Positions 14,453 to 34,359 of a DNA stretch of 36,247 bases are shown here, piece by piece (the first letter of the stretch is position 1; each line of letters starts with the position of its first letter). This DNA comes from a virus. The DNA is taken from positions 1 through 36,247 of IMG/VR virus record IMGVR_UViG_3300027971_000120. The stretch is one strand, 5' to 3'. Made by a program: the position numbers and the translations under genes. Below the pieces are notes generated by a model that saw only the letters and a program-made list of their open reading frames with translations, made no database searches and had not been told where the DNA came from.

Positions 14453-14520
14453 GGTTGTTTCCTTGGTTATGGGTTGTGGTTTATCGATCGTGGTTAAAAT
14501 GACTGTTGTTTGTCAGTAGC

Positions 14521-14559
14521 TTGCGTAAAGTTGCAACGTCTGGTACAATCGCTGCAACA
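14521..14559 (+). promoter_or_regulatory. Promoter and candidate operator for the 14562 gene
   Basis: TTGCGT (14521-14526), a 17-bp spacer and TACAAT (14544-14549) form a sigma-70-like promoter. The predicted transcript start is only a few bases before ATG 14562, and no ribosome site is present. The self-complementary GTTGCAAC (14530-14537) and a partial copy GCTGCAAC (14551-14558) flank the -10 box and could be operator half-sites. Confidence 0.5.
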
Positions 14560-14561
14560 GT

Positions 14562-15023
14562 ATGAGACAGCGTTCAGTGATTGATTGGGGCCCGATCGAA
14601 GCGGAATACGCGAAAGGTATTCCACCTCAGATATTAGCTACTAGATTCAACGTGAATGCTGCGTCGATACGCAGTCACGTTGCGCGTTTCAAACTTGCAA
14701 CTTACAAGCAGCAATCTCTGCAACGAGTGGCAGAAGCGCATCGTGTTGCAACGACAGAAATGGTGGGTGAAGCCCAATCATATCTAGTAAGGTTAAAGAA
14801 ACAGGTTGAGGGCGGGATGAACGCGCTTGAGGCAGAAGCCCCAGCTACCCGCGGAGAAGTTGAAGAACACTTTACTGCATTGGAAAAGGTGAATCGTGTG
14901 GCAACGACAGCTTTTGGCTTGTCGGAAGGCTCGAAAACCCAAACAGTGAACATTGCGGTTTTACAACAACTTCCACAAGATTCGGTGTCAGTAACTGCCA
15001 GTAATCCAGTTATCACTGTGTAG
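14562..15023 (+). CDS. HTH protein, possible small terminase subunit or regulator
   Basis: 153 residues. The N-terminal 45 residues fit a helix-turn-helix of the kind seen in small terminases and transposon proteins: DWGPIEAEYAKGIPPQILATRF then NVNAASIRSHVARFKL. A central helical part (AQSYLVRLKKQVEGGMNALE) suits oligomerisation, and the end is a low-complexity VSVTASNP. TerL is far away (32644), so a regulatory role is equally possible. It stands alone between divergent leftward genes and a structured region, and would be read from a near-leaderless promoter. Confidence 0.5.
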   Translation: MRQRSVIDWGPIEAEYAKGIPPQILATRFNVNAASIRSHVARFKLATYKQQSLQRVAEAHRVATTEMVGEAQSYLVRLKKQVEGGMNALEAEAPATRGEVEEHFTALEKVNRVATTAFGLSEGSKTQTVNIAVLQQLPQDSVSVTASNPVITV

Positions 15024-15035
15024 CCTACGGTTTAA

Positions 15036-15276
15036 TAAACCGTTCATCGTGGTTTTACTGTCCCACGAGATCAATGAAGGGTGAACGATGTAAGCAGGTA
15101 CGGTTTGTACATAACCTTTTCAACTCCTCTCAGAGCTGCCTTGCGAGCCTAATCCTCATTTGATATTTCACATCCCTTGCAGGATGCGTTTAAGAGTTAG
15201 CATGGCTCTTACTTACATCGTTCACCGTCCACTGATTATAAACCGTTCCTCGTGGGTTTGCAGTCCCCACGAGGTC
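15036..15276. ncRNA. Structured repeat region, possible RNA element
   Basis: Two direct repeats of about 37 nt, 15036-15072 and 15239-15276, each fold into a hairpin. The stems are TCGTGG/CCACGA (6 bp) and CCTCGTGGG/CCCACGAGG (9 bp), with similar loops ending in AGTC or TGTC. Between them a perfect 15-bp inverted repeat (15080-15094 with 15212-15226) closes a 117-nt interior that contains further small hairpins such as CATCC...GGATG. No ORF of useful size is present. The outer hairpins lie 12-15 bp after the stops of two convergent genes and could also act as terminators. Confidence 0.45.
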
Positions 15277-16762: not shown

Positions 16763-17089
16763 ATGAAATTCATATGGACATACGAAGAGGGGCCGATCAA
16801 GAGGATCCACGAAAGCCTGGACGATCTAATAACACAGATACTTTCATCCAAGGGGCAAGATCCATGGGAGTATCAAGCCAGGGAAATGTACCGGAAGGAG
16901 ATCATCCGACAGAGCTGTGCCAAGGACCCGGGATACTGCGAATCAAGGGGCATGGGGGATCTGGTGCATGTTCTTGCCTTGCCTGTCGCGAAAGCCCTGG
17001 ATTCGGTGTTTGGGAGTCGTTTAAGCACCTGTAAAGCATGTGCCAAGCGAAGAGCCTGGTTGAACAATAGGATGCCTCGTCGTGGCTAA
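16763..17089 (+). CDS. Small phage protein with C-terminal CxxCAKRR motif, copy B
   Basis: 108 residues, paralogue of the gene at 3743. The C-terminal half carries GMGDLVHVLALPVAKALDSVFG and CKACAKRRAWLN. The N-terminal half (WTYEEGPIKRIHESLDDLI) aligns poorly with copy A, so the conserved unit is the C-terminal region. The divergent promoter space is only 25 bp, too small for two separate sigma-70 promoters, so regulatory sites must overlap the coding sequences. Confidence 0.7.
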   Translation: MKFIWTYEEGPIKRIHESLDDLITQILSSKGQDPWEYQAREMYRKEIIRQSCAKDPGYCESRGMGDLVHVLALPVAKALDSVFGSRLSTCKACAKRRAWLNNRMPRRG

Positions 17090-17204
17090 GACCCCTAAAC
17101 CAAAGGTCGCGGTTACGCAAAGACCGGTGAACAGCAAAAGACTGGTAGCCAAGATTGCAAAGTGGGCCCTTTATCAGGGCAGGGTTAGCGGAATAGCAAG
17201 ATAG
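17082..17204 (+). CDS. Possible 40-residue basic peptide
   Basis: GTG 17082 overlaps the preceding gene by 8 bp and opens a 40-codon frame ending at TAG 17202-17204, at the edge of the iteron-like block. The product is strongly basic (MAKTPKPKVAVTQRPVNSKR...). No clear ribosome site, so expression is uncertain. Confidence 0.3.
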   Translation: MAKTPKPKVAVTQRPVNSKRLVAKIAKWALYQGRVSGIAR

Positions 17205-17480
17205 GGTAACCTAAGTTACCCCAAAAATTTCAAAGTTACCCATTTTAAGTATTTGTGGTTATAATATTTAGGGTAACTAGGGTAACTAGGGTAACTATAA
17301 TATTTTAATCTATATAATCTTGTATGAATTATTTGCGCTGTGTGTGCTGGGCTTGGGAACCCGAAAGTCGAAAAACAAGTTACCCAGTTACCCTTTTTGA
17401 TGTAACTGGTTGAAGTACAGTGTTTATTTTGGGGTAACTTGCCCTGGTAACCTCTATTTTGGGGTATCTTAGGTTACCCC
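17203..17480. repeat. Iteron-like block with terminal inverted repeats; candidate replication origin
   Basis: The whole gap between convergent genes is filled with copies of GGGTAACT or its complement. Three are in tandem at 9-bp period (17271-17296), two are adjacent in inverse orientation (17378-17393), and single copies start at 17204, 17214, 17234, 17432 and 17472, plus variants at 17401, 17446 and 17462. The two ends, 17203-17222 and 17461-17480, are inverted copies of each other (18 of 20 identical), and each is itself nearly palindromic. AT-rich stretches (17243-17270, 17297-17335) lie inside. This layout fits an iteron origin, a partition or operator cluster, or a MITE-like insertion. 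Confidence 0.6.
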
Positions 17481-17482
17481 AA

Positions 17483-17737
17483 TCAGAGGTGCTTATCTAG
17501 AAGTGCAAGGACGCCCAGCCAGTTCTCTTTTGTTTTGAAGTAAATCTCCATAGTCGCCGTGCCCCCACTACCACCCGAGCTCTCGATTAAATACACATCG
17601 ATTCCGTAGAGGCTGGTATCATCCTTGTAGCCGTAGTAACCCTTAAAGTCGATTTGGTTGAAGCAAAACATAACGTAGCCGTCTACGTAGACCTTCACTC
17701 GGCCATTAAAGATTTTAAGGTTGTAGGTGTGTTTCAC
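17483..17737 (-). CDS. Hypothetical beta-rich protein
   Basis: 84 residues from GTG 17737, overlapping the upstream stop as GTGA. Strand-rich with many aromatics (YNLKIFNGRVKVYVDGYVMF, YYGYKDDTSLYGIDVYLIE), a Gly/Ser turn and a final EIYFKTKENWLGVLALLDKHL. The alternating pattern suggests a small lectin- or jelly-roll-like sandwich, which would suit its place behind tail-fibre genes. No family recognised. Confidence 0.55.
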   Translation of the reverse strand: MKHTYNLKIFNGRVKVYVDGYVMFCFNQIDFKGYYGYKDDTSLYGIDVYLIESSGGSGGTATMEIYFKTKENWLGVLALLDKHL

Positions 17738-18120: not shown

Positions 18121-18381
18121 TCAGCAGCTCCAAAGGACTTTCCGGGACCAGTAGTTGGCAGACAGCTTGCCGTCACCACCTTTGATCCCGCCGGACCGAG
18201 CGCAATAGCTCTTTCGTCGTTTAGCCGACTTGTGTTGCCGGAAGTCCTGCATCGAGCTGTCGCCAAAGTGAACGATTCTTTCTTTGCCGTCGGCACACGC
18301 CTTAACCATTTTCTTTTTACCTGGCCGTGTGCTTGCCCGGGGCACGTTACAGGGCATAGAAGCTTTTTTTCCTAGAGGCAT
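18121..18381 (-). CDS. Small basic protein (DUF5754-like)
   Basis: 86 residues. KERIVHFGDSSMQDFRQHKS, KRRKSYCARSGG and SANYWSRKVLW follow the order of a small phage/giant-virus family that I recall as DUF5754. Strongly basic. The start overlaps the stop of the tail-fibre-like gene (TAATG), so all genes from 20036 down to 17483 probably form one transcript. Confidence 0.6.
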   Translation of the reverse strand: MPLGKKASMPCNVPRASTRPGKKKMVKACADGKERIVHFGDSSMQDFRQHKSAKRRKSYCARSGGIKGGDGKLSANYWSRKVLWSC

Positions 18382-19709
18382 TACGGTACTGCTGGATACT
18401 GGGTTAACTTGGTGTAGGTGGACGTAACCTTCGCTGCGGAGTAATTGTCAGTCCATGCGGTCGCTAGCCATGGGTAAGCTACATTACTTGAAGAAGTGGA
18501 GAAAACTCTATACCCAGGCGATTCGTATTGCCATTGGCTTCCAGTCCAGCTGACAAGCTCCATACCATAAAAATACGATGGTCGGCCATTTACAGCGGCG
18601 CCTGGTTGCATCTTTCTCCAACTCTGGTTACCAACAAAACCAGAAGCAGGATTCCCGGGGTTATTGTAGAAAGGGCCGTCCATCAGAACATATGCTGTTG
18701 CGTCAGGCTCTGCGGCGTTCGCTGGGTCATCGCTACCTATGCCTGTCGGTAGTGCTTGGGTTTCGCCGTCATAAGTTGCTAGTGGGCTCGACAAGGTTAT
18801 AGATGCCACGTTGCTTGAAGTCGTATAAAATACCAAAGTATCGAAACTTAGGACCGGCGTTGAGTCTATGTGTGTGAATTTCGAGGAATACTCAGGCCCG
18901 TATATAGCGTTTGTAATTTCAAGCCCGCCTCCAATGTTTTTTAGTTTGATCGAAACCTCGTATTCAGTAATCCCTGTGCCACCAAATCCACTGACTGAAT
19001 TAGACACAAGTTCTGTGTAGACCGATCCGGACGTTGTGCTAATTAGCGCAAGGTCCGTTGTTCCCGTTCTTTTGTTGATTTTGATATTTGACGGCCCATA
19101 CCCAAACATATAGCCCGAATAGCCATTAAAAAGGGCGTTGGTTAAGCCGTGGCTGTCGTCGTTTATGTACGACCCAACACTCTTGAAGAGCCCAATGCGG
19201 ACTCCGTTGCTAGGGCCGGCAGGAAAGCTACCTTTATCCAGTTTCAGCTTAAAGGAGATACTTAATGTTTTGTCCGGCGCTATTTGCCTTGTCGCCGGCC
19301 TGCACCTAGTCCATCCGCAGATGTCTTGAGCGTTTGTGGCGTTTGTAAAAACTGGTCCACCCGCGAGCGCTGCTGTTTTCCGATACAATGCATGACCCGC
19401 AAAGCCTCCGTAAACAATATTTCCTAAATTATATGTCGTTGAACTGCTGTATGTCGGATACTGATCCTTCATGCAGTCAAAGTGACACAGACAATGCCTA
19501 CCGCTTGTTCCGGTGATTAGTTTTACTTCGCCGGCCCCGTATGTTATTGAGTTGGATGATCCAGAGTTAGCTCCGGACGAAAACCATTGCCGATTAAAAA
19601 AATTACCATTGAGTGTTAAGTTGTCCGAATACAGGGTGATTATCGGAGTTAACCCGACAGCGACTGGTTTTAACAGTGTTAAGTCTAAGCCTAAGCCGAG
19701 TTTCGGCAT
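18381..19709 (-). CDS. Tail fibre or receptor-binding-like structural protein
   Basis: 442 residues, poor in charged residues and rich in Ser, Gly, Thr and aromatics, as typical of extracellular beta-structured proteins. A short hydrophobic N-terminus (LGLGLDLTLLKP) may anchor it to the virion. The middle (TLSISFKLKLDKGSF ... NGVRIGLFKS ... EVSIKLKNIGGGLEITNAIYG) looks like a concanavalin/LamG-type jelly roll. Late NQSWRKMQPGAAVNG, GSQWQYESPG and YPWLATAWTDNYSAA add further strands. No enzymatic motif was seen. It follows a small structural-looking gene under one promoter. Identification rests on composition and context. Confidence 0.5.
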   Translation of the reverse strand: MPKLGLGLDLTLLKPVAVGLTPIITLYSDNLTLNGNFFNRQWFSSGANSGSSNSITYGAGEVKLITGTSGRHCLCHFDCMKDQYPTYSSSTTYNLGNIVYGGFAGHALYRKTAALAGGPVFTNATNAQDICGWTRCRPATRQIAPDKTLSISFKLKLDKGSFPAGPSNGVRIGLFKSVGSYINDDSHGLTNALFNGYSGYMFGYGPSNIKINKRTGTTDLALISTTSGSVYTELVSNSVSGFGGTGITEYEVSIKLKNIGGGLEITNAIYGPEYSSKFTHIDSTPVLSFDTLVFYTTSSNVASITLSSPLATYDGETQALPTGIGSDDPANAAEPDATAYVLMDGPFYNNPGNPASGFVGNQSWRKMQPGAAVNGRPSYFYGMELVSWTGSQWQYESPGYRVFSTSSSNVAYPWLATAWTDNYSAAKVTSTYTKLTQYPAVP

Positions 19710-20850: not shown

Positions 20851-21503
20851 AGAATCTCCAGGGAGCTGAAGGTGTCTTCTGAGCCGAATTGACCTTTCAC
20901 AAACACGTTGAAGGCAACGCAGTATCTGTCGGCATCAGCCTGGCTCGGCTCTACTGAGTGAGTCAGGTGAGATGGAAACAGAACCAGCATTCCGTTCTTG
21001 GGCAGCACAGGCCACACGTCTGCGTTCAAGATGTCTCGTCTCTCAAACTCCCAGCCAAAGAAGGCGGGGAATAGGTTCATTTCTTTGTAGGGCTTGGAGA
21101 ACAAGATCGGACCGCTGTTCTCGTATGTCTCTACATAGTAGACACCGGAGATCAGTGAATTCTCGTGCGCATGAGCGTGAGAAAAGTCACCCTTCTGGTG
21201 TTTCATGACCCAAGAGTTGGTAATTTGGAACTGATACTTTCTCTTTAGGCCGAGAGCTTCGAATGCATACGCATTGATCTCTCGAAGGATGGAGCCCTTC
21301 AGATACTGCATGTCCGGGCCGTCCAGGATCCTGGTGTTGACGGAACTCCATCCGTTGTTGGCTTTAACGCGACGCATATCCGCCTGCTTAACGACCGCGA
21401 CAGATTGGCTGTCGGGTTGTCCCAGCTGCGAGATGAACAGCGGGGTGCTGAATAGTGGCGCCACCGATCTCTGTGGCTCAATTACTCCAGATTGATTTCC
21501 CAT
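20847..21503 (-). CDS. 2-oxoglutarate/Fe(II)-dependent oxygenase (phage type)
   Basis: 218 residues. The double-stranded beta-helix signature is visible: HAHAHENSLISGVYYV, with the first two iron ligands in the HxH-like start, VWPVLPKNGMLVLFPSHLTHSVEP with the distal His, and RYCVAFNVF with the Arg that binds 2-oxoglutarate. This matches the putative 2OG-Fe(II) oxygenase group common in cyanophages and other aquatic phages (TIGR02466 type, from memory). The substrate is unknown; a hydroxylation of a protein or nucleotide is usual. Ribosome site CAGGAGGAAAAATAAC. It overlaps the primase-helicase end by 22 bp. Confidence 0.8.
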   Translation of the reverse strand: MGNQSGVIEPQRSVAPLFSTPLFISQLGQPDSQSVAVVKQADMRRVKANNGWSSVNTRILDGPDMQYLKGSILREINAYAFEALGLKRKYQFQITNSWVMKHQKGDFSHAHAHENSLISGVYYVETYENSGPILFSKPYKEMNLFPAFFGWEFERRDILNADVWPVLPKNGMLVLFPSHLTHSVEPSQADADRYCVAFNVFVKGQFGSEDTFSSLEIL

Positions 21504-23599
21504 GTTATTTTTCCTCCTGATTTGCGCCGGATAACCTGCTCAGGTCGGATAGCCATAATTTTGGCCAATCTCTGACCCATGCGGTCCGGACTTGAAACGT
21601 AATGACGCGCGAGCTTTTCGAGTTCGGCATCATTAAGCATGTTGTTGAGTAGGTCGGTTGCAGAACCAACCCACTGTTTTGGGTTTTTCCCGTTCGCCGC
21701 GATTTTGTAATTGATGAGGTACTTATCGAGGAGTTCGGAGAAAGCGTGGTTAGGGTGGGTTGTTCTCGTATCTTCCAAAATGTCGGGGTGATGATAATTC
21801 GTTACGCCGAACCGGTTGGTGCCCTCCAGATGCGAACCCGGCGTCCAGTCCAGGAGCCAGCGGGCAAAGTTGGGCAACTCTCTGGCTAAGATCCGATCGA
21901 TCTCCTGGCGGGGAGGGAAGGGGAACTTCCGGTGCCTCGCCTTGAAGAGCATGATCTTGTCCAGGATTGAGGTGTCGGTGTAGGGGATCGCCCTCATCGA
22001 TTCGGGGTCATCATTCAGCGTGAAGATGATCCGCCCGATCCAGTTGATCGTCGTTGGATTCTCGCGCATCGCACGGTGGCGGTGCTGAGTGTTAGCGACG
22101 AACTTCTTGATCGAGTTGGTGAAGAGGAGATGCTTCTCGTAGCTGGTCGAAGCGACGGTATCGTCAATGTTGAGCACGCCGACTTCAAAGAGCTCGTTAT
22201 TGAACTGATCCCCACCACTGATGTGAGAGGAGGCATCGCAACCTCCACCCATAAGTGCCGCCACGATCTTGGTACCGATTAGGGTCTTCCCTTGCTCCAC
22301 TGGTCCCGCAATAAATACCGCTTGTCCCTGAGCTGGGGCCCCGGCGCTAGCTGTCGTATAGAACCGTTTCAGCCACGCCAGGAAGTACTGGAGACTGTCA
22401 GACGGATCAAAGAACTCGTCCAACAGACTCGCCGTCCAAGGGAAGTGCTCGCCCCACTCTCCCGGAGTGTTGCTTGGCGGCATCACCTTTACCCTGGAGG
22501 TGTTGAGGATGCATCGACTGCCAAACCGCACGAGCTCCTCATGGCTGTAGAGCACCGGGCCGGTGGCATCGACACGACGGTTTTCCCGAATGCGAAGCAT
22601 AGCTTCGTCGGTCTCCGACATATCTCCTCGGGCATCGCTGGTGAGACTTAAACCAAACAAGCCTGCAATATCCTTGCGAGCTGTCTCTGAGGGTGCGTCT
22701 CTCCAACTGCCTTCCATATCGCGGCGCCAATACTTACTTCCGTCGTACCAGTACGAACCCAAAGGTCCGCCCAGACGAGTGTTGTTAAATTCATCGACCC
22801 AATCCGCACCCAAGATATCTGCCCACGGATAAAACGCCCGATCCTGCGAGAATGAAACCATCCCGGTTGCCGTAACGATACAAGCCGACGGATTGTTGGA
22901 ATCCGGAGACCAGAAAGCGTTACAACGTCCGTTGATGTCCAGAGACCCACGGAGTCGACCGGGGAACAGGCTTTCCACCCGCTCTTTGATCTTATCTATA
23001 GGGATCTCGGTATCTCCTTCACCCCGGTAGCGGTGAGAGGCGTCAAAGGCTGAAGCTAGAAGGGCACAGAGGGTATCAAACTTAACTCGGTTATCGCTGA
23101 CCTCGGTGGCTGGAGGATTCCAGGCGTAGTACTGTTCTGGCTTACGGATGTTGTCATCCAGTCCAGGGAACAGCTTACGGACATTGAGTTCCTTCATCAG
23201 ACGAGTGATGAAGGGATCAAATATCCCAGGTGCGATGGCTACGGGTTTCTCAAACAGCCAGATAACTCTTACCCCACCACTAATTGTTCGGTGGGCGTAG
23301 GCGGGTTTCATCCCGGCTTTTGAGCGACGAGTAAGACCTTCAAGCATTTCCTCGGCCGTAATTTGAGCGTCGTAGTCTGCTACAAGGGCGTGCATCTTGA
23401 CCGCCTGGTTCTCACGGGAGACTCGGAGGTTGGGCGCACGACCCTCAAAGCCGGACACAAACAGCCAGTCCGTCGAGGGGTTGGTAGACCAGGAGGAAAA
23501 CTCCTCCTTGGTCATGTTGGGTAGTTGGGTTGTATGAAGCCAGGCGTCGACTGGAGTGACCTCCAGGGAAGCCAGGTTCTTCAGGGCGTAAAGACTCAT
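21482..23599 (-). CDS. Primase-helicase (AEP-like N-terminus, SF3-type ATPase C-terminus)
   Basis: 705 residues. Residues about 70-80 hold an hhhDhD motif (ALVADYDAQI, Asp75 and Asp77), and RTISGGVRVIWLFEKP follows, as in archaeo-eukaryotic-type primases. The C-terminal half is an SF3-like ATPase: Walker A GPVEQGKT with Lys438, Walker B VLNIDDT with Asp479/Asp480, then GRIIFTLNDDPESMRAIP, a sensor-type segment. Such proteins prime and unwind the phage DNA for the polymerase. The gene lies at the end of the replication operon, downstream of the polymerase and a small ORF, with the 2OG oxygenase behind it. Confidence 0.85.
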   Translation of the reverse strand: MSLYALKNLASLEVTPVDAWLHTTQLPNMTKEEFSSWSTNPSTDWLFVSGFEGRAPNLRVSRENQAVKMHALVADYDAQITAEEMLEGLTRRSKAGMKPAYAHRTISGGVRVIWLFEKPVAIAPGIFDPFITRLMKELNVRKLFPGLDDNIRKPEQYYAWNPPATEVSDNRVKFDTLCALLASAFDASHRYRGEGDTEIPIDKIKERVESLFPGRLRGSLDINGRCNAFWSPDSNNPSACIVTATGMVSFSQDRAFYPWADILGADWVDEFNNTRLGGPLGSYWYDGSKYWRRDMEGSWRDAPSETARKDIAGLFGLSLTSDARGDMSETDEAMLRIRENRRVDATGPVLYSHEELVRFGSRCILNTSRVKVMPPSNTPGEWGEHFPWTASLLDEFFDPSDSLQYFLAWLKRFYTTASAGAPAQGQAVFIAGPVEQGKTLIGTKIVAALMGGGCDASSHISGGDQFNNELFEVGVLNIDDTVASTSYEKHLLFTNSIKKFVANTQHRHRAMRENPTTINWIGRIIFTLNDDPESMRAIPYTDTSILDKIMLFKARHRKFPFPPRQEIDRILARELPNFARWLLDWTPGSHLEGTNRFGVTNYHHPDILEDTRTTHPNHAFSELLDKYLINYKIAANGKNPKQWVGSATDLLNNMLNDAELEKLARHYVSSPDRMGQRLAKIMAIRPEQVIRRKSGGKITWEINLE

Positions 23600-23791: not shown

Positions 23792-25552
23792 CTATTTAAC
23801 GTATCTGTTGGTTTCCACGGCCTCGGCTGCGACCGGGCAGCCTTGTAACCAGTCCGGGGTTACCGACATCAACATTTCCACATCTTTTGGTTTCACATCC
23901 TTGTCGACCTCCACAACGGCTTCGTCGTGAACGTGAAGGACAAGGGGTAGGCCAGCCTTTTCGAGTCGTAGGATGCATTCGGCCATGACATCCCGGGCTG
24001 TTGCCTGAACGGTGTTATTACATAAGTTACCACCGTAGAAATTAACGTGAGGACCACCCATGATGGTCTGAGCTGTGTATCCAGCGTATCCGCTTGCGAG
24101 GTTTTGTGTGCGGATGTTTCGGTATCTGAGGCTTCTCCAGGAGGGAAGCTCGATCTCGTATTGTCCGTCTGCTTTGGATTGTTTGTAAGCCGTCTCTAAC
24201 TTCTTCCAGAAATTGACGACGTGATGATTTTTAGACCGATATGTTCTAACAATGTTTGCCGCTTGAGCTTCATCGATCTCCAGGCCGTATGCTGTGTTGG
24301 CCATGTAGGCGAATTTCTTGGCTCCTGCGCCGTACCCAAGACCCAGCACCATTGCCTTGGCAAGCTGGTACATGGCTGTATTGGTTTTCTTTAGTGTTCC
24401 TTTTTCTCCGCTCCAGAGGTTGGACGAGATAGCAAAGGCTTCGTAGATGCCGTATCCGTTACGGACTGCTTCTAGAAGAGTTGTGTTCCCGGAAAGCCAG
24501 GCCAGAACCCTGGGTTCAATCTGGGAAAGATCGCAAACGATGAACTTCTTGCCTGGGCGAGGAATAATGCAGCCTCGCATATCGACGCCGAAATGGGGTT
24601 CCCTAGGCAGATTCTGGACGTTAAAGCGGCTATCTCCACTAAACCGACCCGTATGTGCCCCAAAGAACTTCATGCCGTAAGACGCCGTCATATCTGGACG
24701 CACACGAGAATCGAGCACCTTCATCTTGACCAAGTAGGAATTGGATTTTCTCCAATCCCGCATGGCGGCAACAAAGGGGACCTTGTCACCGTATTTCTTT
24801 TCCCACACCGCACACTCCTCGGAATCTTCTGAAAGGGAATCAGGCCAGGGGATGCCTTGGTTGATACACTCGGCCCTGAAATTCTTGATGGAGAGAACAA
24901 CGCCATCTCCTTTATCCATCCAGGGAAGCTTCTGTTCCGCTTCCCACTTGATTTTATCGAGCTTCTTGATTCCTTCTTTAACTAGGGGCTGATCAATCGC
25001 AAAACCCTTCCACGCCATCTCAATCGTATGCTTGGATAACTTGCGCTCGATTTCCGGCATCTCCGATCCGTACTTCTTGTAGAGCTCTAAACAACTCACA
25101 GAATCTGCTAAAGCGTATTGTGTCATCTCTTCCGCGAACTCAGTATTGACGACATCAGACCACTTCTTGCCCTTCATCTTTTTACGAGGATCCTTCGAAA
25201 TCTCCTTAGCAAGGAGGTTCGTGCAGGCGCCTTCCAGATCCCTTGGAGAGCCAAGGTAAGCCGCAAGATTGGCAGTGCAGAAGAAATCCGCGGGCTTCGA
25301 CTTGATTCGGTCACCAAGAGCCTCAACACACGCTCCGTCGAAGCTGTAGTTGTGCGCAATCCACCGGCAGCCGTCGATCTTATCCCAAGGAGCTTTGTCC
25401 ACGGGACCGCAATACGGCTCAATACCGTCACCAACCATCGACACCATGTAGATCTCCCCACGCGGATCGCGTAGGTAGTGCCACTGGCCGAGCGTCTTAA
25501 TGCTCAGCTCGTTGTCGTAGTAGGATTCGAAATCGATGGCAATGTTTCGCAT
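23792..25552 (-). CDS. Family A DNA polymerase with 3'-5' exonuclease domain
   Basis: 586 residues. The exonuclease motifs are complete: Asp7/Glu9 (DFES), Asn68...Asp72 (HNYSFD) and Tyr146...Asp150 (YALAD). Polymerase parts follow: HTGRFSG with NVQNLP (300-315), motif A DLSQIEPR (Asp341), motif B KAMVLGLGYG (Lys399) and motif C HVHDEAV (His542, Asp543). Leu403 aligns with E. coli Pol I Phe762; Leu there has been linked in virome surveys to temperate or slower-replicating phages. The polymerase replicates the phage genome with the primase-helicase. The start is set by the exonuclease motif; it overlaps the preceding gene by 49 bp with a weak ribosome site. Confidence 0.92.
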   Translation of the reverse strand: MRNIAIDFESYYDNELSIKTLGQWHYLRDPRGEIYMVSMVGDGIEPYCGPVDKAPWDKIDGCRWIAHNYSFDGACVEALGDRIKSKPADFFCTANLAAYLGSPRDLEGACTNLLAKEISKDPRKKMKGKKWSDVVNTEFAEEMTQYALADSVSCLELYKKYGSEMPEIERKLSKHTIEMAWKGFAIDQPLVKEGIKKLDKIKWEAEQKLPWMDKGDGVVLSIKNFRAECINQGIPWPDSLSEDSEECAVWEKKYGDKVPFVAAMRDWRKSNSYLVKMKVLDSRVRPDMTASYGMKFFGAHTGRFSGDSRFNVQNLPREPHFGVDMRGCIIPRPGKKFIVCDLSQIEPRVLAWLSGNTTLLEAVRNGYGIYEAFAISSNLWSGEKGTLKKTNTAMYQLAKAMVLGLGYGAGAKKFAYMANTAYGLEIDEAQAANIVRTYRSKNHHVVNFWKKLETAYKQSKADGQYEIELPSWRSLRYRNIRTQNLASGYAGYTAQTIMGGPHVNFYGGNLCNNTVQATARDVMAECILRLEKAGLPLVLHVHDEAVVEVDKDVKPKDVEMLMSVTPDWLQGCPVAAEAVETNRYVK

Positions 25553-25740
25553 TCGGCTTGGATTTCTTCTTTGGGTTCCTTGAGGGTTTCGAGATATAGG
25601 TCAAGCATCCGGCAGGTGAGGCCCTTGAGTTCCTCAGCCACCGTCTTTTCGACCGGTTGTGCATCCATGTGATCAGTGTGAACTTCAAACTTGAGTTCAC
25701 CCTCGACCGCTGAGATGCGTACTCTTACGTCTACGCTCAT
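25504..25740 (-). CDS. Hypothetical small acidic protein
   Basis: 78 residues, ribosome site AAAGGAAACTCAGA. Strand-rich N-terminus (VDVRVRISAVEGELKFEVH), then an acidic helical part with a Cys, and a Thr-rich end. It overlaps the polymerase start by 49 bp. No family recognised. Confidence 0.6.
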   Translation of the reverse strand: MSVDVRVRISAVEGELKFEVHTDHMDAQPVEKTVAEELKGLTCRMLDLYLETLKEPKEEIQAECETLPSISNPTTTTS

Positions 25741-25865
25741 TCTGAGTTTCCTTTCGTTGTGTGAGTTGTGGTGCTTACGCTTTCAATCGCAGCACCGAAG
25801 GTGTAATTCACGGTTGTGGTTGTACCCTGGGTAGTTGCTTCGGTAGTTGGGTAAAGGTCTTTCAT
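25737..25865 (-). CDS. Possible 42-residue Thr-rich peptide
   Basis: MKDLYPTTEATTQGTTTT... from ATG 25865, about one third Thr, with a 4-bp ATGA overlap with the next gene, which supports translation. The ribosome site is weak (GGAAT), so the start could be different. Confidence 0.45.
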   Translation of the reverse strand: MKDLYPTTEATTQGTTTTVNYTFGAAIESVSTTTHTTKGNSE

Positions 25866-27717: not shown

Positions 27718-28814
27718 TGTTTATCTTTTATCTTTCTTAGTTGGTAGGACTCGCTTCCTCGCGTCAGGGCGTTCGCTTCGGTAAGTTTGTCCTCAAGTTT
27801 GTCGCGCTCTTCTTGTTTTGTGCCCCGAGGAGCCTTGCTGGCGACTTGATCAGCTAGCTCCTTGAAGTTGACTGTGACGGCTTCCATAAAGTCAGCCGTC
27901 GAAATCTTATCTTTGACCAATTCAAATGCCTTGTTGGCATCTGTAATCTTTCTTGCCCCCTGAACGGCCGTAAGACCGTATCCGGGGATTTCATTTCCTT
28001 CCTTTGCGTACTCCACGTTGTGTTTACGTACGGAACCGCACCAAGCTTCCAGCACCGGTACAAGGCGTTGCGCCTGCGAACGCTTGTCGGGGGTGGCGAG
28101 CTGGCTTGGGTGAAAGAGATCGGGAAGTTGAGCGTCGTGAGCCAGGTCGTAGGACTTGGCTAAGGAGAGGGACATAGCCTGGACGGCGTCGCAGGTCGCA
28201 ATACGGGAGCAATAGATGCACTGGTCGCCGGGGCGGGCCATATCCGGGGTATTATTCCGAGCCCGCTCGATGATGCCCTTGATTCTGGCGTTCATCTTGG
28301 GGAGATCCCCATCTCTGGTGAATGAAGCCGAGTCCACGTAATCCAAGCGGGGCTGTAGAATGTGGAGCTTGAGATTCTTTACGTACGGATACTTCTTAAA
28401 TACGCCGATTGCATACGCCCACATCTGCGGGTTGGTCTCTGCCGGGTCAACTGGGTTAAAACCAAACTTAAAATCAAACATCGCAGCCTCATCCGCACAA
28501 ATGAAAAAGCGATCGACGTAACCCCATTGGTCAAACACGTCGAGCTTCTGCTCGGACAAGTCCATGAATTTAGAATTCTTTTCCGTGTACTCAGCTTTTG
28601 CCGCTTCGACGAATGAAAGACATTTGTGGACGAGAGCTTTTTCAGTGGAGTCGAGACCTTCCATTTCGCCGGTCTCGCACGCTTTGTGCATCGCAGTTCC
28701 ACGGAGAGTTACCGGATGAACTTCACCAGAATTGTCTTTTTGATAACAGGGACAGAGCTCAAAGTACTTGAGGCTGCTCGGTGAGTAGCTAGCGTGATTG
28801 TCAGTAGTACTCAT
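27714..28814 (-). CDS. PD-(D/E)XK nuclease with Fe-S cysteines (Cas4/DUF2800-like)
   Basis: 366 residues. The nuclease core shows GTAMHKACE (His43), GYVDRFF (Asp101), MFDFKFG (Asp114-x-Lys116) and NPQMWAYA (Gln130), the order of RecB/Cas4-type nucleases. Four cysteines (Cys21, Cys199, Cys202, Cys208: CIYCSRIATC) match the C...Cx2Cx5C pattern of a [4Fe-4S] cluster. The family resembles the phage DUF2800 type and is expected to process DNA ends in recombination. A long charged C-terminal helical extension follows. Start and stop overlap neighbours by 4 bp. Confidence 0.8.
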   Translation of the reverse strand: MSTTDNHASYSPSSLKYFELCPCYQKDNSGEVHPVTLRGTAMHKACETGEMEGLDSTEKALVHKCLSFVEAAKAEYTEKNSKFMDLSEQKLDVFDQWGYVDRFFICADEAAMFDFKFGFNPVDPAETNPQMWAYAIGVFKKYPYVKNLKLHILQPRLDYVDSASFTRDGDLPKMNARIKGIIERARNNTPDMARPGDQCIYCSRIATCDAVQAMSLSLAKSYDLAHDAQLPDLFHPSQLATPDKRSQAQRLVPVLEAWCGSVRKHNVEYAKEGNEIPGYGLTAVQGARKITDANKAFELVKDKISTADFMEAVTVNFKELADQVASKAPRGTKQEERDKLEDKLTEANALTRGSESYQLRKIKDKQ

Positions 28815-30085
28815 GAGGCCAACGTTATTACCAAATCTCCGTCATTAAGCAAGTCAATTTCACGGATCTTGGATTTCGTTTTTCGTGCGACTTGTTCTTC
28901 AACTGAATTTGCGGCGTAAACTAAATATTGTCTGCAATGACTCTTAGATCCGGTGCGTGCGATGCGACCGAGCGCCTGTTTTAAGTCAATCGCCGAGTAC
29001 GTCGGGCACACTAAACTCACTCGAGGGCGGCCGTGTAAATCGTGAAGTGAAAGACCAACGCCACCCGCTTGAATTTGCACGATGATGACGTGTTCTTTGT
29101 TCGCTTGAAACTTGTCGATCGCTTCCTGACGCTCCTCTGCGCTTTGTTCTCCGTGAATTGCAGGGGCATTTAAACGCTCCATAAGCGTCCGGCATGTCTG
29201 CATGAAATTGGTAAAGATCACGACACTGCATCCAGCCTCCACATGCTCCTTCGCCATCTCGGTAAGGACAGGCACCCGGAGCAGTTCAACCTCCTGGCGA
29301 AGTCTTAATAGCCTTGTACGGGGCTCAGAGGGGTCAAAATCGTTGGACTTAGCCTCTGCTAAGGCCGCCAGCTCGGCCTCCATTTGGCCGTAGAGCTTGC
29401 CAATGCGGTCATCAATATCAAAGACCTCGGACATAACATTGTTTTGAGGGAAGGCATCGCCTAGCTCTTCCACGCGAGTACGCACGCCACGCTTAGGGAA
29501 GATATGGGCATGAATTGCGAGAAGACCCTCTTTGCCACCGTAGTATTGGAAACCACCCCAAGGGGCTTGCGCCACCTTCATGGTCTTGAGCCAACCCCAG
29601 TAGTTCACGCCGGTATGGATGCCCAGAAGGTCGCCCGTCCATCGCATATCCAGAGGGTTCTGGGCGGCCGTAGCCGACAGCATCAAGACGGTATGGTCGG
29701 CTTTAGACGCACCCAGGATCTTACCGTTCTGACTGCTGTATCCTTTGCACTTATGAACCTCGTCAAAAATCAGTAGGGTAGAGGAGGGGAGATCCCACTG
29801 CCATTTCTTAGCTACCCACTTGCCGTGCTTTTTACCCGTGCGGAGTTTTTCGTAGTTGATCACAAACAAGGGTTCGACGCCGGCTTCTTTAAACCAATAC
29901 TTCCAAGAAGGTATGACCGCTTTAGGACATATCACGGCCACGGGCATATTCATCTGTTTAGCGACAAAGGCCGCCGTGACCGTTTTTCCTGTCCCACAAT
30001 CGCTAGCGTCCAACGCTACACGGTTGTTGATCAGTGCGTCCATCAACTGGGACGCATTTTCCTTCTGCCAAGGAAAGAGATTCAA
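28811..30085 (-). CDS. SF2 (SNF2-like) DNA helicase/ATPase
   Basis: 424 residues from TTG 30085, overlapping the upstream gene as TTGA. Motif I is DCGTGKT (Lys34), motif II FDEVH (Asp108-His111), motif III LSATAAQNP, and the second RecA lobe has SVVIFTNF, EHVIIVQIQAGGVGLSL and the motif VI QALGRIARTG (370-379). QxxGRxxR and the short length point to a compact SNF2-type phage helicase, probably in replication or recombination with the flanking nucleases. Confidence 0.88.
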   Translation of the reverse strand: MNLFPWQKENASQLMDALINNRVALDASDCGTGKTVTAAFVAKQMNMPVAVICPKAVIPSWKYWFKEAGVEPLFVINYEKLRTGKKHGKWVAKKWQWDLPSSTLLIFDEVHKCKGYSSQNGKILGASKADHTVLMLSATAAQNPLDMRWTGDLLGIHTGVNYWGWLKTMKVAQAPWGGFQYYGGKEGLLAIHAHIFPKRGVRTRVEELGDAFPQNNVMSEVFDIDDRIGKLYGQMEAELAALAEAKSNDFDPSEPRTRLLRLRQEVELLRVPVLTEMAKEHVEAGCSVVIFTNFMQTCRTLMERLNAPAIHGEQSAEERQEAIDKFQANKEHVIIVQIQAGGVGLSLHDLHGRPRVSLVCPTYSAIDLKQALGRIARTGSKSHCRQYLVYAANSVEEQVARKTKSKIREIDLLNDGDLVITLAS

Positions 30086-30953: not shown

Positions 30954-31139
30954 CTACTGGCTTTTTTGGCTGTTTTTCTTACCATGCGCGTCGATGTACT
31001 GCGCTAACACAATTCTGACCAATCCTGAAACGTTGTTTACCCCTATTCGCCGGCTTTCCTCTTCGAGGAATTTAGCCATGTGCTTGGGTAAGCTTATTGT
31101 TTTTACTGTTTGACTATTCGATCTTTCGTGACTCCTCAT
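30954..31139 (-). CDS. Ribbon-helix-helix (CopG-like) DNA-binding protein
   Basis: 61 residues. VKTISLPKHMAKFLEEESRR then IGVNNVSGLVRIVLAQYIDAH is a beta-strand and two helices, the RHH fold. It overlaps the integrase 3' end by 26 bp and so shares its transcript. Regulation of integrase or the switch region is likely but not shown. The tail (KKNSQKSQ) is basic. Confidence 0.7.
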   Translation of the reverse strand: MRSHERSNSQTVKTISLPKHMAKFLEEESRRIGVNNVSGLVRIVLAQYIDAHGKKNSQKSQ

Positions 31140-32382
31140 TCTTAATTGTGGCTCCTTCGCCTGGCATTATAGCAAAATACTTCTCTGCCATACTCCGGGT
31201 CACTGTTCTCCCATCCACCTGGATGGTTTTGTACCGACGCAGCAACATGGTAGGGCTGTTGCCCATCGCAAGTGCTGTTGTTGAAGCGTCTCCAGTCATA
31301 GCTAAATAGTATGTAGCAAAACTGTGACGATTCGCATTCTGCTTCCAAGTAAATAGTGGTTTTTCCTTATGAATTTTGTGAATTACCTCATTAACCGCGT
31401 TGTAAATGTCTTTGTTTGCACTAGTTACACCGAGGCTTTTGAGTATATTACCTTTATATGTCCTAAAAGGGCTAAGCCAAGCTTTAAGATTAGCGGTCAT
31501 GGCTATGGCTCTATCGTTGTTAGCTCTTGATTTAGAACCACCTACAAGCTTTCCCTTGATTAGTATCAAATTACTAGACCAGTCGATATCTTCCCAGTTC
31601 AGCCTGTCAATTTCAGCAGACCTGATGCCTGCAAAGGCACCCAAAACAATCCAGGGTATCGTTCTCTTTGTGGCGTGTTTAAGGATTAAAGCCATATCTT
31701 CAACTGACCAGCTTTCCAGCTTCGCGTCGTTAACTCGGATACTTTCAGTCTTTTCAGCCTGATGGTCTTTGTCTGGCTCCAAGTAATCTTTCCGCTTGGC
31801 GTAATCAAAGATCATACTGATAGCCCCACGATAGTGCTGACGGGTTCTAGGCTGCCATTCCGGGTTAGATAAGAAGGAGTCCAGTTCCTTGGCTTTGATG
31901 GTGGACACAATTCGCTCCCCAAAAACCTTTTCAAATTTGCCCCAACGCTGTTGAAGAGTTTGTTTCTGGCGTTTTTCAATAAAGGTGTCGTTCAGCTTTA
32001 TGTTTAGCATTTCCTTCAAAACCTCGCTCACGCTGATTTGAGGCAACTTGCTTTCGCTATTTTGCAACCACAGGGCAACGGCCTCGCTTAGTGGAGTACC
32101 GCCCATCTTCTTTTCGAGATCTCTAAAATAACTCAGCTCCTTGGTAGAGACTGAAACCATTGAGGCCCGACCGTCCGCAAGATCCCTGGCAATTTTACGA
32201 GCCTCGCGCTTGGCTTCCGAAAGATCTGCAATCGCACGACGCTGTCTTTTTCCCTCGGCCCACCACGTAACCATGTACGTTAAATAATCCTTATTATTCA
32301 CGCACTGATAGATTTTCACATTCGCAAAGCCGTCTTGCACCTCAATCGGTTTGAATTGCTTATTCATATTTGAACGAGACAT
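31114..32382 (-). CDS. int: Tyrosine recombinase / phage integrase
   Basis: 422 residues from ATG 32382 (TTG 32391 and ATG 32367 are alternatives; none has a ribosome site). The N-terminal arm domain is followed by a core-binding domain (about 115-200). The catalytic domain has Arg254 (GAFAGIRSAEI), the Lys strand LILIKGKLVGGSKS, Box II NANRHSFAT (Arg352, His353), GNSPTMLLRRY and the nucleophile Tyr384. The usual first His of HxxR is Asn349, and the LGH His is Asn375. Together with the attP-like site 150 bp upstream this is the integrase of the phage. It would insert into a serine tRNA gene. Confidence 0.93.
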   Translation of the reverse strand: MSRSNMNKQFKPIEVQDGFANVKIYQCVNNKDYLTYMVTWWAEGKRQRRAIADLSEAKREARKIARDLADGRASMVSVSTKELSYFRDLEKKMGGTPLSEAVALWLQNSESKLPQISVSEVLKEMLNIKLNDTFIEKRQKQTLQQRWGKFEKVFGERIVSTIKAKELDSFLSNPEWQPRTRQHYRGAISMIFDYAKRKDYLEPDKDHQAEKTESIRVNDAKLESWSVEDMALILKHATKRTIPWIVLGAFAGIRSAEIDRLNWEDIDWSSNLILIKGKLVGGSKSRANNDRAIAMTANLKAWLSPFRTYKGNILKSLGVTSANKDIYNAVNEVIHKIHKEKPLFTWKQNANRHSFATYYLAMTGDASTTALAMGNSPTMLLRRYKTIQVDGRTVTRSMAEKYFAIMPGEGATIKNEESRKIE

Positions 32383-32404
32383 TACTGACAATTACTGTCT
32401 GATG
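32381..32404. repeat. Direct repeat R1 beside attP (possible arm site)
   Basis: 24 bp, the same as 32623-32646 except for 2 bases, on the int side of attP. It includes the region around the int start and its TTGACA box. Likely arm-type integrase-binding or regulator site. Confidence 0.55.
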
Positions 32405-32638: not shown

Positions 32639-32646
32639 GTCTGATG
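32623..32646. repeat. Direct repeat R2 beside attP (possible arm site)
   Basis: 24 bp, 22 identical to 32381-32404, on the terL side of the attP core and overlapping the terL promoter and start codon. The two copies flank attP at about 115 and 65 bp. Confidence 0.55.
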
Positions 32647-34359
32647 CCGACGAATCTGTACGGAAAAGTGTGGCCGGAAGGGGCCGGAAAACTCGAAATT
32701 GAGCTTATGGCTTTTAAGCTGGGTTTGACCCCAGAAACTGGAGGTTTGGGCAAGTTTCAGCATTTCAAGAATGTTGTAGAGATTCTATGGCCATACCACA
32801 AGACGCGAAACAAAGCCGGGTTCTGCTGGCACCCTTGGGCGGAGCGGATGATCCAGGCCGCTTGCGAGCAGGACTACCTTGCTATCTCCGGCCCCAAGTC
32901 CAGCGGGAAGACGGCGACCTTTGCTATGTGGGGATTGGTGAACTGGCTTTGCGCTCCCCACGAGACCCTTGTCTTGGTTACCAGCACATCTATTCGGGAG
33001 GCCCGTAAACGCCTTTGGGGAGGCATCCGTGAGCGATTTTTGCAGGTCCCAGGCTTTCCCGGGAAATTGATAGACTCCATGGGTAAGATCATTTTGACGG
33101 AAGGGGAGTCCAGCGACAGGTCATCCATAACCCTGGTGCCGTCTAGCCCTGACAAAGAAAAGGAGGCCACAGCCAAACTTATCGGGCTTAAGAACCAGCG
33201 GGTGTTCCTTATCATCGACGAGGCCACCGACGTGACCAATTCGGTCTTCGAAGCTATCTCCAATCTAAACGCCAACCCTACCTTTCAATGTATCGCCTTG
33301 GGTAACTTTGCCAGCCAGTACGACCCTTTCGGTATGTTCGCTACTCCTGTGGGCGGATGGAACTCGGTCACGGTAGATCAAGAGGAGTGGAAGACGAAGC
33401 TGGGTTTATGTCTTCACTTGGACGGAGCCAAGACACCTAACCTTGATCATGACGACGCCTGGCCGTTCTTGCTTACGACAAAACAACTGCGGCACGCCGA
33501 AGACCACGACGGCGAGCACAGTATCTCTTTCTGGCGATTTATCCGTTCCTTCCCAGCCCCAGGCGGAGCGGAGGAGTCTATTTATTCAGAAGCCGACTTC
33601 CGCAAGTTCGAGGTCGATAAAGCTCCTAAGTGGATTGAGCCACCCAAGGTAGTCGCTGGACTCGACCCTTCGTTTACCAACGGCGGAGACAGAACGGTGT
33701 TGTATTTCTTGGAGTACGGACGGACTGAAGAAGCAGGGCCTACTGTGAACTTAAAAGAATTCACTATCATCAGAGAAAACGTAAACGACCCACAACCCAG
33801 AAACTTTCAGGTGGCTCGGCAAGTTATGGCCGAATGCCAAAAGCAAGGGGTGCCACCGGAATATCTAGCGGTCGACGCCACCGGTGCGGGAGATCCGCTC
33901 TGCGATATTATTTCCGAGACGTGGTCTCCAAGAATCTTGCGGGTGAAGTTCGGAGAAAAGCCCAGCACCCTGCCGATCAGCTCAAGCTCGATGGTGGAGG
34001 CCAAGGACAAATACGGGAATAAGGTCACCGAGCTTTGGTTTGGTGGAGTTGAGTTTATGCGGTCAGGCCAGTTGAAGGGTGTGATTCCTGAGCTGGCCAG
34101 AGAACTAACCAGTAGGAAATACACAACGATGGCCGGGGGTAAGTTGGTCGTAGAGTCCAAGCGAGATTACAAGTCGCGGGTAGGGAAGAGCCCCGATTTG
34201 GCAGACGCAGCTTTTGTTGGGTTGGAGTGTATTCGGGTACGAGTCGGAGCAATGGCTGGCGGAACGGTGATGGCAAGGAAGAGTGGGGGCTGGCAAGAGC
34301 AGGCCCGCCGGTTGGATCGTGTGATCGACACCAACAAAGACCCCGTGTTAAATTATTGA
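32644..34359 (+). CDS. terL: Terminase large subunit
   Basis: 571 residues, near T7 gp19 size. ATPase: Walker A SGPKSSGKT (83-90 region), a coupling-like stretch, Walker B VFLIIDEATD (Asp192, Glu193). Nuclease domain: GLDPSFTNGGDRT (Asp341), AVDATGAGDP (Asp411), SPDLADAAF (Asp521), the three RNase-H-fold acids. It cuts and pumps phage DNA into the procapsid through the portal, which is encoded 34 bp downstream. The small subunit is not next to it; the HTH gene at 14562 is a candidate. Start ATG 32644 has no ribosome site and sits just after the -10 box. Confidence 0.93.
   Translation: MPTNLYGKVWPEGAGKLEIELMAFKLGLTPETGGLGKFQHFKNVVEILWPYHKTRNKAGFCWHPWAERMIQAACEQDYLAISGPKSSGKTATFAMWGLVNWLCAPHETLVLVTSTSIREARKRLWGGIRERFLQVPGFPGKLIDSMGKIILTEGESSDRSSITLVPSSPDKEKEATAKLIGLKNQRVFLIIDEATDVTNSVFEAISNLNANPTFQCIALGNFASQYDPFGMFATPVGGWNSVTVDQEEWKTKLGLCLHLDGAKTPNLDHDDAWPFLLTTKQLRHAEDHDGEHSISFWRFIRSFPAPGGAEESIYSEADFRKFEVDKAPKWIEPPKVVAGLDPSFTNGGDRTVLYFLEYGRTEEAGPTVNLKEFTIIRENVNDPQPRNFQVARQVMAECQKQGVPPEYLAVDATGAGDPLCDIISETWSPRILRVKFGEKPSTLPISSSSMVEAKDKYGNKVTELWFGGVEFMRSGQLKGVIPELARELTSRKYTTMAGGKLVVESKRDYKSRVGKSPDLADAAFVGLECIRVRVGAMAGGTVMARKSGGWQEQARRLDRVIDTNKDPVLNY

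Follow-up and report, generated by a model that had tools for sequence, protein, structure and literature searches.

The window, by which we mean the whole 36,247-bp IMG/VR virus record analyzed here, contains a noncoding block of 278 bp (17203-17480) between two convergent reading frames. The left neighbor is a 40-codon ORF (17082-17204, plus strand, read directly), with its TAG stop overlapping the first iteron; the right neighbor is an 84-aa ORF (17483-17737, minus strand), with its stop 3 bp beyond the block. A first-pass annotation of this DNA had put both ends of the block within 2 to 3 bases of the neighboring stops. The GC content of the block is 37%, as opposed to roughly 50% for the genome. 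Rfam and tRNA scans gave no matches.

Ten exact GGGTAAC/GTTACCC sites, five per strand, fall within 17204-17479, and only two more were found in the rest of the 36-kb window. A first-order Markov simulation of the window, run 300 times, never put more than 3 sites into any 278-bp stretch. Three variant or partial sites complete the set: GGTAAC at 17446, the half-site GTAAC at 17402, and GGGTATC at 17462. This agrees with the earlier count of about 10 copies with variants. The inverted iteron pairs and AT-rich tracts reported for the noncoding block were likewise all recovered within 17203-17480.

The block consists of two arms that are mirror images of each other. The left arm begins with a terminal inverted repeat (17204-17226, plus strand), which includes an inverted iteron pair (forward at 17204, reverse at 17215), followed by an outer iteron (17235-17241, minus strand). 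Next come three tandem iterons, GGGTAACTA (17271-17295, plus strand), starting at 17271, 17280, and 17289 with the 9-bp period that had been noted before. The right arm mirrors this order with two tandem iterons (17379 and 17387; 17379-17393, minus strand), two outer iterons (GGGTAAC at 17432 and GGTAAC at 17446; 17432-17451, plus strand), and a terminal inverted repeat (17457-17479, minus strand) with the variant iteron 17462 in forward and 17473 in reverse orientation. The ends had been described as 20-bp inverted copies matching at 18 of 20 positions; they are indeed inverted copies, of 23 bp, with 22/23 positions matching.

The tandem iterons of each arm face a common center (17296-17373). 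Its left part is an AT-rich core (17296-17334; best 30-mer, 90% AT), which is probably the site of melting. The remainder is a GC-richer segment (17335-17373) with a short inverted repeat, TTGGGAACCCGAA. From the center outward, each arm thus presents tandem iterons, a 45-bp step, divergent outer iterons, and an inverted pair at the extreme end. The step between divergent iterons, measured start to start, is 45 bp on both arms (17235 to 17280 and 17387 to 17432).

Two other repeat clusters were seen in the window. The intergenic stretch 15024-15260 contains ATAAACCGTTC(A/C)TCGTGG at 15035 and 15238 together with four copies of AAACCGT, an arrangement also present in genome G001; these repeats resemble a promoter or operator common to the small early genes. 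Several TTGCAAC/GTTGCAA copies occur at 14510-14760, at the start of a cluster of small plus-strand genes, and the same motif is enriched in G001, G003, and G004.

Conservation of the block in close relatives

An exact pattern scan of IMG/VR for three tandem copies of GGGTAACTN produced 13 hits. Five were viral contigs carrying a homologous block; a search for the repeat in related phages had been proposed in the first-pass annotation. The other eight were chance repeats in sequence that reads as coding. A search with the exact terminal palindrome returned mostly lone terminator-like hairpins in unrelated contigs. A sixth contig, the 58-kb IMGVR_UViG_3300042924_004594 (L067/L077), stops inside the block, probably because the assembly broke at the repeats. 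The maps of two close relatives, G001 and G003, close into circles, one of 76.1 kb and the other of 72.7 kb; the window therefore represents about half a genome.

In all six phages (the window and its five relatives), the block is single copy, syntenic, and 278 bp long without indels. Absence of the block from this place in related phages was looked for and did not occur. Identity of the block is 93-97% in the five relatives, and the DNA past the block ends diverges. Within the six-phage alignment, variable columns are scarcer in the iterons than elsewhere (3/88 versus 26/190 columns; p=0.01). The variant base of the right terminal repeat (17467) is an A in four of the five relatives, which gives GGGTAAC and matches the left repeat. 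The block is a compact noncoding unit, with two mirrored iteron arms about an AT-rich core, and it is under selection.

Sharp conserved ends, diverged flanks, and terminal inverted repeats are also what a MITE-like nonautonomous transposon would display, an identity that had been offered earlier. The block is, however, present once per genome, in a constant syntenic gap and with no target duplication seen. It is not dispersed: no copies were found elsewhere in the plasmids and other phages searched, and BLASTN against GenBank phages and plasmids gave short chance matches only. The probability that the block is such an element is vanishingly small.

The two circular maps could suit a phage-plasmid, and iteron arrays are typical of centromeres too, which would make the block a parS-like partition center, another identity suggested at first. 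Against this reading stands the lack of any ParB_N (PF02195) match in 12 genomes, the circular relatives included, whereas the controls matched in 11 of 14 cases. We consider a partition function highly improbable.

A proposed initiator and its distant relatives

The replicon that carries the block encodes an SF3 helicase with a predicted C-terminal winged helix. This protein, a 705-aa primase-helicase (DUF5906/SF3; 21482-23599, minus strand), is our proposed initiator. Its gene belongs to a replication module with a family A DNA polymerase (23792-25552, minus strand) and a helicase (Helicase_C/ResIII; 28811-30085, minus strand). Taken alone, the ORF matches Pfam DUF5906 weakly; in the alignment of the initiator family, all 30 of 30 members match it, two of them also match the papillomavirus E1 helicase, and one matches an archaeo-eukaryotic primase.

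The AlphaFold model of the initiator (pLDDT, 86.8) has its nearest structural match in the helicase of NrS-1 (6k9c; Z 22.6 over residues 277-703). It also matches the SaPI5 primase-helicase (Z 16.8 for 7ola, and 16.3) and PriRep1 with double-stranded DNA (7pds; Z 13.8 over residues 371-705). Profile searches of PDB sequences with the initiator yielded nothing useful. In the model, residues 640-705 adopt the order E-H-H-H-E-E of a winged helix, and we propose that this C-terminal domain (residues 636-705; 21485-21694, minus strand) binds the iterons. Between lineages with differing iterons, mean identity is 46% in the SF3 core and 30% in the C terminus, the latter being lower in 44 of 45 pairs. 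A lower identity there is expected if the C terminus carries specificity.

No recognizable relative of the initiator was found in 50,697 GenBank phage records. A scan of genome contigs for the initiator recovered five contigs from MAGs, Verrucomicrobia and Blastopirellula among them, which are probably binned phages.

Within the clade of the window, the block lies 2.3-7.5 kb downstream of the initiator gene (about 4 kb in the window), with cargo genes in between. In distant relatives, by contrast, this distance is 0.04-1.9 kb. The first-pass annotation had seen no obvious binder among the neighboring genes. That view is superseded by the SF3 primase-helicase, encoded 4 kb away, as the likely binder; in distant relatives, its gene lies directly upstream of the equivalent block. 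Near the block of the window is a gene for a 442-aa protein (18381-19709, minus strand) of no recognized family, which is missing from the closest full genomes. Proteins 54-65% identical to its product are encoded on other contigs, of which two have a length of 64 kb and show nothing that matches this replication module, and the gene looks like recent cargo.

The distant relatives were collected by a profile scan for the initiator, which gave 80 loci; 23 representatives were scored for repeats. Their initiators are about 31-36% identical to that of the window. At many of these loci, the most repeat-rich stretch falls just downstream of the initiator gene and is built from a different iteron word: GGGAACT (L201, L205, L193, and L213), GGGGGAA (L211), TGGGGGA (L214 and L204), GGGGGTGA (L195), TGGTGA (L155), CTGCGAGA (L157), or GGTGGT (L158).

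Of the 11 representatives scoring at least 20, 7 carried their strong block of inverted iterons downstream of the initiator gene at a distance of no more than 2.5 kb. When all 23 are counted, the highest-scoring repeat window lay in this interval in only 7 (binomial p=0.07), a weak excess because many of them show no strong block. The scoring skips one C-rich block as low complexity, in G021, where it lies about 1.7 kb downstream.

The layout of these distant blocks repeats that of the window. An outer inverted pair is followed by a divergent iteron, 42-48 bp, an inward tandem pair, a GC-rich and then AT-rich core, an inward tandem pair, 45-48 bp, and outer iterons. The GC-rich segment sits at the place that corresponds to 17335-17373. 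Gaps between divergent iterons measured 42-48 bp in 15 of 19 cases over 11 lineages, as opposed to a mean of 1.08 under random placement (0 of 5,000 trials reached 15); the iteron words were picked by eye after viewing the blocks, and the lineages share ancestry. In G019/L161 (iteron ATGGACA), the block is downstream of the initiator, and the spacing is off 45 bp with the iteron chosen. The spacing plan recurs with changed iterons beside homologous primase-helicase genes.

Two further readings of the block were considered. One is that it is some other DNA-binding array, either a silencer or operator cluster or a bidirectional transcription terminator of the two convergent genes. Its place in a convergent gap and the weak terminator-like hairpin that the left inverted repeat forms on the minus strand are in line with this. 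Over 900 bp, however, three terminator-like sites were found against 1.3 expected, and no promoter-like site was present; moreover, a terminator would need neither ten iterons, nor a fixed length of 278 bp, nor an arm spacing of 45 bp that stays constant across lineages. Such an array is very unlikely to be the main role of the block.

The other reading makes the block the attP site of the phage tyrosine recombinase (31114-32391), with arm-type repeats around a core. The attP sites of arm-binding integrases contain direct and inverted short repeats, and P4 has such repeats beside int. The block is nonetheless 14 kb from int, which adjoins terL both in the window phage and in distant relatives, and the iteron blocks track the primase-helicase gene instead. 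An attP function is extremely improbable.

The recombinase gene and that of the terminase large subunit (32644-34359) form a divergent pair kept in relatives at about 25-40% identity. Such a fixed int/terL partnership is unusual; the phage also has rIIA/rIIB-like genes. In the int-terL gap of G020 (about 47,079-47,323) and in that of G021 (about 25,571-25,837), TTTGTCCA/TGGACAAA repeats occur at least five times and in both orientations; they may be arm sites of attP or an operator of int. These repeats are missing from the corresponding gap of the window.

GC skew and the poles of replication

After detrending, the cumulative GC skew of three close genomes has its peak 0.15-1.0 kb from the block and its minimum about half a genome away. 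The peak falls no more than about 4 kb from the block in four of the five distant genomes, the exception being G039, which has no switch at the block. A switch near the block was thus found in 7 of 8 genomes (G001, G003, G004, G036-G038, and G040). Third-position skew within coding-strand classes also differs between the two halves, and the difference has a common direction in 7 of the 8 genomes, six of them with p≤0.023. The skew switch places the block at or near a pole of replication.

The sign of the switch is positive on the left and negative on the right, within coding-strand classes as well, with the cumulative maximum near the block. Under the usual rule of a guanine-rich leading strand, a cumulative maximum marks the terminus. 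In the GC-skew check proposed in the first-pass annotation, the position of the switch thus counts for an origin and its sign for a terminus. These phages have either a C-rich leading strand or their terminus at the block.

If the block were a terminus or fork-arrest site, forks would start elsewhere, meet at the block, and be stopped by a protein bound to the iterons. The location of the skew maximum in 7 of 8 genomes, with the minimum about half a genome off, is as this reading predicts. It leaves the opposite pole as the place of initiation, and there the skew minimum falls within structural genes with no iteron-like array, except for a gap of direct repeats in G040. A gene for a terminator protein was not found, and both the layout of the block and its downstream position relative to an SF3 initiator are as in the origins of P4 and PICIs. 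We regard a terminus as unlikely. Since no iteron-like array was found at the opposite pole apart from this gap, an origin is kept as the best reading of the block, with the terminus-type sign at odds with it. The gap in G040, at 31,693-32,062 counted from the block and near the skew minimum, is 370 bp long and GC-rich and contains 12 copies of CCCTGACC.

Comparison with satellite origins

As a yardstick for known origins, we used the record of satellite phage P4 as annotated by others, in which type-1 repeats (GGTGAACA) are marked in both ori and crr, the two sites bound by the alpha primase-helicase. In the P4 ori, the step of the divergent pair 9353/9396 is 43 bp; beyond the pair come another inward copy and AT-rich DNA. 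Each half of crr comprises a tandem pair, 43 bp, outward copies, and a terminal inverted copy, with crr itself located immediately 3' of alpha.

The resemblance to the window block extends to short G-rich iterons (GGTGAACA in P4 and GGGTAACT in the window), a divergent gap of 43-45 bp, tandem pairs at 8-10 bp, and AT-rich DNA on the inner side. The location of crr 3' of an SF3 primase-helicase gene recalls the blocks of the distant relatives, and the SF3 cores can be aligned (hhalign E=1.5e-4, probability 52). In P4, however, the two types of arms are about 5 kb apart and crr consists of two direct copies, whereas in the window both arms are joined head to head around a single core, all within 278 bp and with inverted repeats at the ends. 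The replicons differ as well: that of the window is a large phage that encodes a terminase and a polymerase itself. Because ori and crr share their arm geometry (43 bp), the block reads as an ori-type and a crr-type arm fused head to head, in a PICI-type arrangement.

Origins of PICIs and SaPIs, which have Rep or PriRep initiators, comprise two iteron sets around an AT-rich region, downstream of the initiator gene, an organization described as unique to these satellites (PMC6092414). SaPI Rep recognizes the origin through its C-terminal domain, apparently as two hexamers (PMC7581432). In outline, the window block shares the two iteron sets flanking an AT-rich region, and its initiator model matches the SaPI5 primase-helicase. 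PICIs are satellites, whereas this type of putative origin is found in phages of about 65-76 kb. The window phage itself was rejected as a PICI, that is, as a helper-dependent satellite, given its own terminase large subunit and the 72-76 kb circular maps of its relatives.

The NrS-1 phage protein is a primase-polymerase/helicase with a DUF5906 helicase, as befits the nearest structural match; the window phage differs in having a separate family A polymerase. We know of no iteron origin of comparable kind in NrS-1. The Cch2 protein of SCCmec is a D5-type helicase whose C-terminal domain binds repeats, and its putative origin consists of direct repeats just downstream of the helicase gene (PMC7581432). 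That system has three 5-nt iterons only, a separate primase, and no mirrored arms described. Taken together, the P4/PICI-like anatomy and the initiator suggest that the block works like a P4 or PICI origin in a phage that is not a PICI.

We conclude that the block is very probably a theta-type replication origin of an uncultured phage of the 70-kb class. An origin had been among the identities first suggested, and it is the one well supported by conservation, the spacing plan, and the SF3 initiator. Counting against it are the sign of the skew switch, the lack of a switch in G039, and the distance of 2.3-7.5 kb to the initiator gene in the clade of the window.

At such an origin, the winged-helix C terminus of the SF3 primase-helicase would bind the iterons, and one initiator ring would assemble per arm, facing inward. 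One ring per arm is proposed because the 42-48 bp between divergent iterons fits the footprint of a fixed multimer. Melting of the AT-rich core by the two rings would then let replication begin in both directions, and the initiator's own primase part and the phage family A polymerase would act next. The outer inverted pairs may secondarily stop the two convergent transcripts.

In the reading adopted here, the block is a compact mirrored version, in large tailed phages, of the known P4 and PICI kind of origin. It is conceivable, although we hold the idea only tentatively, that SF3 primase-helicase replicons (P4, PICIs, and a large group of uncultured tailed phages) share a geometric origin code: two mirrored arms have a constant step of 42-48 bp, matched to the multimer of the initiator, and the iteron word changes along with the winged helix. 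In this proposal, satellite origins, split in P4 and compact in PICIs, would derive from the head-to-head form seen in tailed phages. The combination of PICI-type organization with P4 spacing in tailed phages suggests a possible source of satellite replicons. These phages would also offer a natural series of origins in which the geometry is constant and the recognition word changes, making it testable how SF3 initiators measure an origin and how origin specificity evolves. Finally, the finding provides a simple means of locating origins in uncultured members of the group.
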